Made by a program: the position numbers and the translations under genes. This document shows, piece after piece, positions 23,298 to 26,215 of a stretch of 39,485 nt of DNA; position 1 is the stretch's first letter; each line of letters starts with the position of its first letter. This DNA comes from an uncultured Bacilli bacterium (lineage in GTDB: Bacteria > Bacillota_I > Bacilli_A > RF39 > UBA660): the NCBI GenBank assembly GCA_944331805.1, contig CALVIS010000005.1, positions 1-39,485 on the forward strand, in the 5' to 3' direction. Below the pieces are notes generated by a model. That model made no database searches, had not been told where the DNA came from, and was given only the letters and a program-made list of their open reading frames with translations.

Positions 23298-25118
23298 TTA
23301 TGGGGCTAAATCAAGGGTGAAAGGGTTATTTTTAGTACCATCACCCCCAGTTATTATGACGTTAGATTTTAAGTTTAGAGCAGGATAAACGTTGTTAGCC
23401 CTGTCCGGATAGTTGAAGGACGCAGCACCGTTGCTACCTACGTAACGCACGTGAGACGTACTATATGGTGTTAAAGTCCAATAATTTACATTATTTTCAC
23501 TCCTATCAAATTGCCCGGCCATTAATTCCCCAAACCTTAATAAGCCTACTTTAGCATTTGTATTTGTAGCATATTCAGACATACTGACATCTTTATATTT
23601 AGCTAATCTATAACTAACCCCACTTCCTACTGTTCCTAAATACCAAGTTGTATTATCTTCTATCATATTAACTAGTTCACTTGTTAAATATTCTCCATCA
23701 GTTAAATATTCTCCATTAAGAAAACTTCCTATTGTATTTGTGCTAGAATAAAATACACTATCTCCAAAAGTCACAGTTTTAATAGTTCCATTTTCTTTTA
23801 ATGTTTTTGCACTAACTATCTTTGTTAGTCCTTTAGTTTCGTGACTAACTATTCGATATAAATTATTTTCTCCAGTTCCAAAATTTATATATTCACCACT
23901 ATATCTTGTGTTTAGTAGTGTGCCTGATAGATTACTATCATTATCTCCTTCTAATCTATAGGGATTATCTACTGTTCCTTCTCCTGACTCCACCTTTATT
24001 TCAGACTTTAAATTTATAGATGGCCGCACACCATAATTATTCGTAACAGAAAGAGAATTAACTTGACCAGTATTTAATACAAAAAAATTATTAATAGCAT
24101 TATTATATGGTGTCAATAGCCACCAATAAAGTCCATTATTTAAATAGCTTTCAGAGCTTCCACTCATAGTATATTCATAAAGATTTAAAAGTCCCACTGC
24201 ATCTTCTACAATAGTTCCGCCTTCTTCTTCACTTGGTAATTTACCATCACTCACCATACTTGCATTCCACTTACTATCCAATTTTATAAATTTCTCTGGA
24301 CTTCTTAAATTACCTAAGAAGCCATCTACTGTTGTATCATTTAACCAAGATTCCATATAACTATCTTCAAAATTAGTACTATTATTATCATAAGAAATAG
24401 TACTTATATTCCACTGAGTTACTAATTTTACAAAATTATCACTTGTATCTATAGACACCGCTCTCCATAACTTTCCACTATACCATATATAATTATTAGG
24501 ATTACTTCCTGTTACAAAAGTCTGTTCAGAGTCATCATAATTTAATCTATTCATGATATCATCTTCTATTACTTCTTTTACTGTTCCTGTTGATGTTATC
24601 TTTCTTAGTAAGTGTCCATCACTTGGTAAATCTAAATCATTATAATCTAAGCCTACACTTACTCCTAATTCTATACTTATTTCACTTTCTGTAGTATTTG
24701 ATACTCTTACTATATAAGTATTACTACTTCCTGTTGTGTCTACTTTCTCTAAGTTTATTCCTGTACTAGATGGTGGGGTATTTACTCCTTCTTTTTCTAT
24801 ATACCCTATATCTACTCCTTCAGGCAAACTTCCTTCATAATAAAAGTTAAATCTTCCTACTCTATTATTAGGGTTAGATAAAGTTACTATAAAGTCTTTT
24901 CTACTATTAGATGGTACTGTTAAAGTATTTGTTTCTTTATCATCCACTAATAACTTATAAGTTAAATTGCCTGTTACGATACTTATAGCATTTTCTTTTT
25001 CTTTTGTTACTGTAAACATCGCATAAGAAAAGTATCCTCCTAATATTAATAAAGTTATTATTACCATTATTATCATATATATCTTACTAAAACTTGTTTC
25101 TAATAATATCTTCTTCAT
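23298..25118 (-). CDS. Large surface protein with two DUF6273-like modules; candidate diversity-generating-retroelement target
   Basis: The ATG at 25118 (AAAGGAG upstream) starts a 606-residue protein. A hydrophobic segment (about residues 12-34) ending GGYFSYAMFTVTKEKENA resembles TasA-like or prepilin-like export signals. A beta domain (to about 190) and two homologous modules follow. Each module ends with the same architecture: W(W/T)LTPY, a variable stretch, (R)PxxNLKS, then (S/T)GxGTxxNP. This is the C-type-lectin/formylglycine-like fold seen in DUF6273 proteins. In the second module the variable stretch (HVRYVGSNGAASFNYP, then DRANNVYPALNLKS) is encoded by DNA with about 55% GC, against about 35% either side. 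Ligand binding at the cell surface is likely, but the ligand is unknown. Confidence 0.75.
   Translation of the reverse strand: MKKILLETSFSKIYMIIMVIITLLILGGYFSYAMFTVTKEKENAISIVTGNLTYKLLVDDKETNTLTVPSNSRKDFIVTLSNPNNRVGRFNFYYEGSLPEGVDIGYIEKEGVNTPPSSTGINLEKVDTTGSSNTYIVRVSNTTESEISIELGVSVGLDYNDLDLPSDGHLLRKITSTGTVKEVIEDDIMNRLNYDDSEQTFVTGSNPNNYIWYSGKLWRAVSIDTSDNFVKLVTQWNISTISYDNNSTNFEDSYMESWLNDTTVDGFLGNLRSPEKFIKLDSKWNASMVSDGKLPSEEEGGTIVEDAVGLLNLYEYTMSGSSESYLNNGLYWWLLTPYNNAINNFFVLNTGQVNSLSVTNNYGVRPSINLKSEIKVESGEGTVDNPYRLEGDNDSNLSGTLLNTRYSGEYINFGTGENNLYRIVSHETKGLTKIVSAKTLKENGTIKTVTFGDSVFYSSTNTIGSFLNGEYLTDGEYLTSELVNMIEDNTTWYLGTVGSGVSYRLAKYKDVSMSEYATNTNAKVGLLRFGELMAGQFDRSENNVNYWTLTPYSTSHVRYVGSNGAASFNYPDRANNVYPALNLKSNVIITGGDGTKNNPFTLDLAP
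23385..23470 (-). other. Putative variable region of a diversity-generating retroelement
   Basis: In 23401-23460, 33 of 60 bases are G or C, while the flanking 60-base blocks have 23 and 21. Codons become unlike the rest of the gene (ACG, CAC, GTG, GCG, TCC, CCG). The translated pattern VRYVxxNGxxxxNYxxxANNVYPA is what adenine-directed mutagenesis of an AAC-rich template would give. The equivalent part of the first module is AT-rich and ordinary. No template repeat or reverse transcriptase is in this window. Confidence 0.5.
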
Positions 25119-25145
25119 ATCCTTACTCCTTTCATTATTACACAC

Positions 25146-25173
25146 AAAAAAGAATAGAATTATTCTCTATTCT
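25146..25173 (-). terminator. Terminator of the poly-G small ORF
   Basis: Minus-strand arms AGAATAG (25173-25167) and CTATTCT (25157-25151) are followed by TTTTT. The stem includes the stop codon of the 39-residue ORF. Confidence 0.7.
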
Positions 25174-25286
25174 TTTAAACCATAATGAAAGAAAGTAACT
25201 AAATTACTATTAAACTGCCCCCCCCCCCAGGTAACATATTGTAAACATGGTGTTTTAGAAAAATGACGAATTATTTTACCCTGCAT
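25167..25286 (-). CDS. 39-residue ORF containing a G11 tract
   Basis: The ORF begins MQGKIIRHFSKTPCLQYV, passes through TWGGG (encoded by T followed by eleven G), and ends QFNSNLVTFFHYGLKE. It has a promoter (25316-25345), a ribosome site (AAAGGAAG) and a terminator, so it looks like a complete small transcription unit. I do not recognise the peptide; it is neither a signal peptide nor clearly membrane-spanning. Losing or gaining one G shifts the frame and gives another short tail. It precedes the surface-protein gene in the same direction. It may be a phase-variable small protein or leader, or a non-coding RNA with a chance frame. Confidence 0.5.
   Translation of the reverse strand: MQGKIIRHFSKTPCLQYVTWGGGQFNSNLVTFFHYGLKE
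25218..25228. repeat. Homopolymeric C11/G11 tract
   Basis: Eleven consecutive C on the plus strand (G on the coding strand) inside the 39-residue ORF. In a genome of under 30% GC such a run is striking and is typical of contingency loci prone to slippage. Assembly error in run length is possible. Confidence 0.85.
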
Positions 25287-25315
25287 ATCAATACTTCCTT
25301 TCTATTGTTAAATCA

Positions 25316-25345
25316 ATCTTATCACAATTATAAGTTACTTAGCAA
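25316..25345 (-). promoter_or_regulatory. Promoter of the poly-G small ORF
   Basis: Minus strand TTGCTA (25345-25340), 18-bp spacer, TAAGAT (25321-25316) with an extended -10 TG. Confidence 0.55.
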
Positions 25346-25357
25346 GTAAATTTTTTA

Positions 25358-26215
25358 TTACTTTAACTTACTTAACAAATTATCTAATATTTCTGTGTCT
25401 TCTATCTTAGTAATAGAAAAACATTTCTTACCCAAATCTTTAAAACTTGCTCCTGAATGATACAGAATTTTCTTATCTATAATAATAAATCTATCATGAA
25501 AAGAATTATCAATTACTAATGTTACATTACTATATTGTTCTTTATACTTTTCATAATCTTTATTGTTATATTTATTGGTAATTAAAGTAACTTGTTTATT
25601 AGTCTTAGATAATATATCTAATATATTCTTATCAATATAATTATCTATTATAATGATACTTTCTTTAGATTTATCAAATATGTTTAGCATAAGAGAATAA
25701 GCATCATAGATCTGTCCCTCAAAAAATAGATGATTATTTTTATCTTTAAAACTAGAAAATGTCTCTTCTAATAAATCTATTCTTTTTGAATCTTTTAATA
25801 CTAAGTCATTTATATATTGTTGCCCCAGTAAATTAGTTGAAATATATTTTCTCATTGCCACAAAGGCATCCATTATTCTTATACTTGTTTCTTCGGCAAT
25901 AGGTGTTCTAAGTATAGTTGCAAGCATGGCAACACCTTGTTCTGTAAAAGCATAAGGTAAAGTCCTAGACATTGCACTATATTTTGCGGTCCCAACTTGG
26001 GACCGCAAATAATCATATTCCTCTTCAGTTAACTGAAACATAAATCTTTCGGGAAACCTATTAATATGCCTTTTAACCGCTTGATTAATAGTTTTAGTAC
26101 CATTTTTACATTCATAAAGTTCTGCTAGATCACTATCTAACATTATTTGTTTTCCCCTTATTTCATAGATCATGTTCACTATTTTTACATCTTCTTTATT
26201 TATTAAATCATTAAT
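25358..26215 (-). CDS. ORF6N-domain protein with phospholipase-D-like C-terminus; probable ATT start
   Basis: The N-terminal ORF6N domain (IYEIRGKQIMLDSDLAELY, then RFPERFMFQLTEEEYDYL and LPYAFTEQGVAMLATIL) is a DNA-binding module common in phage and mobile-element proteins. After a helical linker, the last 120 residues (SIIIIDNYID, then HDRFIIIDKKILYHSGAS) resemble a PLD-like half-site, as in several DUF-type fusions. The only in-frame start with a proper ribosome site (AGGAGG, 8 bases away) is an ATT at 26215, giving MNDLINKEDVKIV before IYEIRG, which fits homologues. The first GTG (26179) and ATG (26173) lack a ribosome site and would cut the N-terminus. The function is probably regulatory. 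Confidence 0.75.
   Translation of the reverse strand: MNDLINKEDVKIVNMIYEIRGKQIMLDSDLAELYECKNGTKTINQAVKRHINRFPERFMFQLTEEEYDYLRSQVGTAKYSAMSRTLPYAFTEQGVAMLATILRTPIAEETSIRIMDAFVAMRKYISTNLLGQQYINDLVLKDSKRIDLLEETFSSFKDKNNHLFFEGQIYDAYSLMLNIFDKSKESIIIIDNYIDKNILDILSKTNKQVTLITNKYNNKDYEKYKEQYSNVTLVIDNSFHDRFIIIDKKILYHSGASFKDLGKKCFSITKIEDTEILDNLLSKLK

Follow-up and report, generated by a model that had tools for sequence, protein, structure and literature searches.

A poly-G tract in a short leader ORF as a probable phase-variable attenuator of surface-protein genes in Candidatus Onthousia

Introduction

In amino-acid attenuators such as the trp and his leaders, the ribosome translating the leader decides whether an intrinsic terminator forms. 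The input is the supply of charged tRNA, and the targets are biosynthesis operons.

At the pil1 pilus locus of S. gallolyticus, GCAGA repeats within a leader ORF alter the length of the leader (PMC3894217). The longer leader blocks a premature terminator and turns the pilus ON, pil3 behaves alike, and mutants confirmed both the terminator and the requirement for leader translation (PMC3894217). In the open-access literature searched, no phase-variable leader-peptide attenuation was found beyond these two pilus loci. Phase-variable genes with homopolymeric G tracts and surface functions are described for Campylobacter and Neisseria; in these genes, the tract is located inside the switched ORF (hmbR, hpuAB) or in its promoter (porA) (PMC6321876, PMC3786947, PMC3639595).

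The element described here was identified in a 39,485-nucleotide stretch of contig CALVIS010000005.1, referred to as the window. With the trp and his attenuators it would have in common the decision of a leader ribosome over a terminator, but the input would be a heritable reading frame instead of charged-tRNA supply. With pil1 and pil3 it shares a simple repeat in a short leader ORF that has its own ribosome-binding site, one frame that stops in or past the terminator and another that stops well upstream, and surface targets. As in pil1, the repeat number varies and shifts the frame, seen here between genomes (11 versus 9 and 11 versus 10 G), and a terminator lies between the leader and a surface gene without a promoter of its own, with about 20 copies as exceptions here. 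The pil1 and pil3 repeats are GCAGA pentamers at two pilus loci, whereas the element contains a mono-G tract and is present in at least 12 copies per genome across a genus. It also differs from both in preceding a paralogous family of surface proteins, in containing a segment complementary to both ribosome-binding sites, and in being predicted from sequence. Because the repeat unit and the leader differ from those of pil1, common descent is not claimed, only that the element works like pil1 in the features that sequence can reveal. Homopolymeric G and surface functions are shared with the Campylobacter and Neisseria genes, but the element has its tract in a leader ORF of its own, ahead of a terminator, and not in the switched ORF or its promoter. 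New here are the poly-G tract, the genome-wide multiplication, and the conservation of a segment with complementarity to the leader and surface-gene ribosome-binding sites alike. With a probability of roughly 0.8, the element is a phase-variable leader-peptide attenuator.

Anatomy of the leader locus

The features of the window locus, all on the minus strand, are as follows.

25318..25345 (-): putative leader promoter, read from sequence; similar motifs occur upstream of many copies
25292..25302 (-): leader ribosome-binding site GAAAGGAAGTA, from sequence; leader SDs are complementary to the distal segment
25167..25286 (-): leader ORF of 39 codons, which 11 G place in the read-through (ON) frame, by translation and frame parsing
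25218..25228 (-): G11 tract, the presumed slippage site, from sequence; near-identical loci have tracts of unequal length
25182..25198 (-): distal segment TTACTTTCTTTCATTAT, conserved and with complementarity to both ribosome-binding sites (putative anti-SD)
25146..25176 (-): predicted intrinsic terminator, a 12-bp stem followed by a U run, from sequence
25123..25138 (-): ribosome-binding region of the surface gene, ATAATGAAAGGAGTAA, complementary to the distal segment
23298..25118 (-): putative switched gene encoding a 606-aa protein with a hydrophobic N-terminus (FSYAMFT) and a DUF6273 domain, from Pfam and sequence

A preliminary description of this stretch had called its G11 run improbable by chance, and had placed it in a 39-codon ORF, in frame at the present length, with a promoter, ribosome site and terminator of its own. 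The run (25228-25218 (-), C11 on the plus strand) is indeed the only one of at least 8 G in the window, and no run of that length arose in 100 dinucleotide shuffles of the window. Translation of 25286..25167 (-) gives MQGKIIRHFSKTPCLQYVTWGGGQFNSNLVTFFHYGLKE followed by a stop, and one-base slippage leads to short alternative tails, as had been stated. The accompanying signals are also present, the promoter as motifs in the sequence: a -35-like TTGCTA (25345-25340), a 16-nucleotide spacer, and an extended -10-like GATAAG (25323-25318). The extended motif is TGTGATAAG, and its spacing to TTGCTA is suitable. A simple consensus scanner run on the window flagged neither the leader promoter nor the terminator.

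The terminator hairpin has its 5’ arm at 25176-25165 and its 3’ arm at 25159-25148, and the leader stop codon (TAG, 25169-25167) falls within the 5’ arm. The surface gene begins at 25118, 28 nucleotides beyond the matched end of the terminator U-run motif. A Pfam search with the product of the 39-codon ORF gave no match, and Rfam contained no family for the element, with a single sub-threshold match located outside it.

The gene immediately 5’ of the leader (25358-26179, (-)) encodes a protein in which an ORF6N domain and, weakly, a Rha-like match were identified, as is typical of phage-type regulatory proteins.

Copies of the element in the genus

The genome to which the window belongs has 12 separate tracts of at least 8 G, and all 12 are copies of one leader element. 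All have the same setting. A ribosome-binding site is followed by a short ORF that passes through LQxVTW or a near match; next come the G tract, a segment of variable sequence, ACTTTCTTTCATTATG or something close to it, and the terminator. A gene for a protein with a hydrophobic N-terminus usually follows. A thirteenth copy in this genome (on C24) has an A interrupting the tract. Among all copies, a few have a short tract or one broken by A, and such tracts are perhaps locked.

In Candidatus Onthousia, a genus of uncultured gut Bacilli, the element pattern matches 26 of 35 genomes, with up to 29 copies in one genome; the reversed pattern, used as the control, matches none of the 35. A similar pattern was absent from the 143 other genera sampled in the family. 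No copy was found in IMG/VR viral contigs, and there is thus no sign of carriage by phage. The name Candidatus Onthousia reportedly occurs in a study of chicken gut metagenomes (PMC8035907).

Promoter-like motifs similar to those of the window recur upstream of many other copies. Some copies closely follow another gene and may be transcribed from its promoter.

One locus (L187, CALVIY010000047.1) has at least four tandem copies in 8 kb, each followed by a surface-type gene. Four long leaders (L082, L101, L109, and L141) contain repeated units such as QGKINRQFWGKLIRQ/HFSKT 5’ of LQxVTW.

Tract length and reading frame

Tract lengths were taken from MAG assemblies, and the variation described here is variation between assembled genomes. 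An alignment of the window with G030:C64 over roughly 1 kb shows 6 mismatches. Its sole internal gap comprises 2 G of the tract, which has 11 G and is in frame in the window and has 9 G and is out of frame in G030:C64. Loci L191 and L192, which come from separate MAGs, show 2 mismatches and a sole internal gap of 1 G in the tract (11 versus 10). More distant pairs of loci differ at the tract and elsewhere too. The preliminary description had suggested a phase-variable switch beside a surface gene, and a tract that differs between near-identical loci of different genomes supports this well.

A total of 142 distinct copies were parsed, and a terminator was recognised in 137. The distal frame is defined by the codons ACT TTC TTT. 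By raw counts, which overstate independence given that the copies are related, this frame is open back to the G tract in 137 of 137 copies; the corresponding counts for the remaining two frames are 2 and 0. The preliminary description had named homologues lacking the flanking frame as the finding that would speak against it; with the frame beyond the tract kept in every copy, this objection falls away. Because of the relatedness, the variable segments were grouped into 21 clusters before the frame test, and the expectation was taken from dinucleotide shuffles. The distal frame is open in 21 of 21 clusters where the shuffles predict 5.8, and the chance probabilities multiply to about 1e-12. In 20 clusters neither of the other frames is open, against 10.3 expected.

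As assembled, 15 of the 121 copies with an identified start (about 12%) have that start in the distal frame. This share falls short of one third, a point against the switch. The genome of the window has 2 in-frame (ON) copies out of 13, namely the window copy and one on C37. A distal frame that is open yet mostly unused is what a reversible switch predicts.

The tract also reads as Trp-Gly-Gly codons (TGG GGG GGG), the layout resembles that of amino-acid attenuators, and G runs can slip at RNA polymerase or at the ribosome. These points would fit an attenuator that senses glycine or tryptophan, or a fixed programmed slippage with a constant mixture of frames, in both of which the tract would not be a heritable switch. 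Such readings are improbable, since near-identical loci differ by 1-2 bases in the tract and most copies are out of frame; for amino-acid sensing in particular, the downstream genes are of the surface type, with no biosynthesis family among 42 proteins.

Stop codons and the terminator

In 136 of 137 copies, 20-28 nucleotides separate the ON-frame stop from the downstream end of the terminator motif; the stop falls within the 5’ arm of the terminator in 133 and within the loop in 3. Stops of the OFF (out-of-frame) leaders avoid the stem in 105 of 106 cases. The terminator sequences are diverse (for example, AAAAGAATAG, AGAGCAGGATAG, and AAGAATAGAGTAG) and are read in different frames, and the stop is at a nearly constant place in each. 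When folding was performed with the footprint of a ribosome blocked at the stop, the terminator formed in 104 of 106 copies with the OFF stop and in 1 of 106 with the ON stop. In about 108 of the 128 copies for which a gene was found, the window included, the ATG is 23-39 nucleotides past the terminator. This leaves no room for a separate promoter in most downstream genes, and transcription of those genes must cross the terminator.

The small ORF thus placed looks like a cis-acting leader, the length of which would decide whether the terminator before the surface gene forms. That it instead encodes a small protein or antigen with a phase-variable C-terminal half is very improbable. Such a protein would account for an open distal frame in all copies and for the recurrence of LQxVTW and TFFHY among the leader peptides, but the N-terminus is unconserved, and its length ahead of LQ varies between about 2 residues and several dozen. 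Across copies, the Phe codons TTC TTT hardly ever change synonymously, which fits constraint at the nucleotide level, although this constancy is partly an effect of ACTTTCTT having served as the search anchor (an anchor-free search of the fetched loci added 3 variant copies only). The stop, moreover, is placed by the terminator, across several terminator sequences and frames, and the element is nearly always 5’ of the same kind of gene. The preliminary description had suggested that the locus serves antigenic or ligand variation, but the ORF itself probably does not encode a variable antigen or ligand, given an unconserved N-terminus, distal codons that look conserved as nucleotides, and a stop in the terminator stem.

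Some loci match except in the segment following the tract, where the types differ as though recombination had exchanged them between copies (the window and L032 versus L033, and L062 versus L132). Copies are alike across loci and are located directly 5’ of paralogous genes. An element serving mainly as a recombination site for the exchange of surface genes, that is, antigenic variation by gene conversion, would account for these observations. Recombination alone leaves the kept frame, the closed alternative frames, and the geometry of stop and terminator unexplained, and as the main function it is highly unlikely. Recombination at the element may occur in addition to switching.

Complementarity of the distal segment to the ribosome-binding sites

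The distal segment TTACTTTCTTTCATTAT pairs with the ribosome-binding region of the surface gene at a median of -12.9 kcal/mol and with the leader ribosome-binding site at a median of -13.9, compared with -7.6 for controls, which were start regions from a set of 338 genes. True pairs have a value of -13.3, versus -12.3 (sd 0.15) for permuted pairs. In the count for the named structure, 92.1% of cells in the anti-SD helix are paired, versus 48-69% when the helix is slid. Covariation in this helix is weak because most positions hardly vary, and some paired changes are present (CATTAT/ATAATG, CATAAT/ATTATG, and AATCAT/GTGGTT). The structure returned by RNAalifold on a MAFFT alignment was poor, owing to bad alignment of the terminators. 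Masking of the surface gene SD by the distal segment is plausible from these pairings.

A second sequence, GTTACCTGG, was considered as an anti-SD for the leader. Its pairing was stronger at the median than that of the controls but inside their range, and this role is not claimed.

Proposed switch

In the attenuator proposed here, the transcript from the leader promoter would open with the tiny ORF. With 8 or 11 G, for the sequence type of the window, the start codon would be in frame with the distal half and the ribosome would read on, to halt inside the 5’ arm of the terminator. The masked arm would allow RNA polymerase to proceed into the surface-protein gene, which is the ON state. With 9 or 10 G, the ribosome would stop farther upstream, the terminator would form, and the gene would be OFF. 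Because the distal codons are complementary to the ribosome-binding site of the surface gene, translation of any RNA that reads through while the switch is OFF would probably be poor as well, through pairing with the distal segment. Replication slippage in the tract, presumed to take place within a population, would flip the state at random and independently at each of the at least 12 copies per genome.

Whether the copies amount to a genus-wide phasome built from a single module is, in our judgement, a matter of even odds. In such a phasome, one attenuator of this uncultured commensal lineage would have been multiplied before a large paralogous surface family, and poly-G slippage would flip each copy independently, both through the termination of transcription and through a masked ribosome-binding site, with combinatorial surface variation as the outcome. 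If the element works as proposed, each cell could display a different mix of surface proteins. The logic of the leader attenuator would then also exist in an unrelated lineage, animal-gut bacteria known only from metagenomes, with a mononucleotide tract and on the scale of a genome-wide surface repertoire. Because the ON or OFF state predicted for every copy can be read from its sequence, existing metagenomic reads can serve to test the idea.

Downstream genes and longer spacers

The proteins encoded downstream are of the surface type. DUF6273 is present in 10 of 42, and families of biosynthesis in 0 of 42. NCBIfam gave one repeat-protein match among these 42 proteins. With SipW-dependent (TasA/camelysin-like) export as a candidate label for the downstream proteins, no signal model of NCBIfam matched at E<=0.001; N-termini of the SYAxF type are visible by eye among them, and a TIGR02228 signal peptidase scores above the cut-off in the genome. 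The predicted structure of the surface protein is of middling confidence (pLDDT 64), and its PDB matches are weak, with none at E<=0.001.

At L065 and L092, the gene following the element encodes a protein of 465-466 aa that begins with MEPKEKYEQ and is without a signal-like N-terminus; not all of the switched genes thus look like those of surface proteins.

About 20 copies (for example, L163, L182, L147, L048, L069, and L160) have a longer spacer before the gene, 88-119 nucleotides or more, and contain promoter-like sequence past the terminator. At those copies, the leader would thus not be the sole control. Several of the long spacers contain a near-perfect palindrome, TGTCAAAAATATTGATATTTTTGACA or similar, beside promoter-like hexamers, and the two together are possibly a regulated second promoter.
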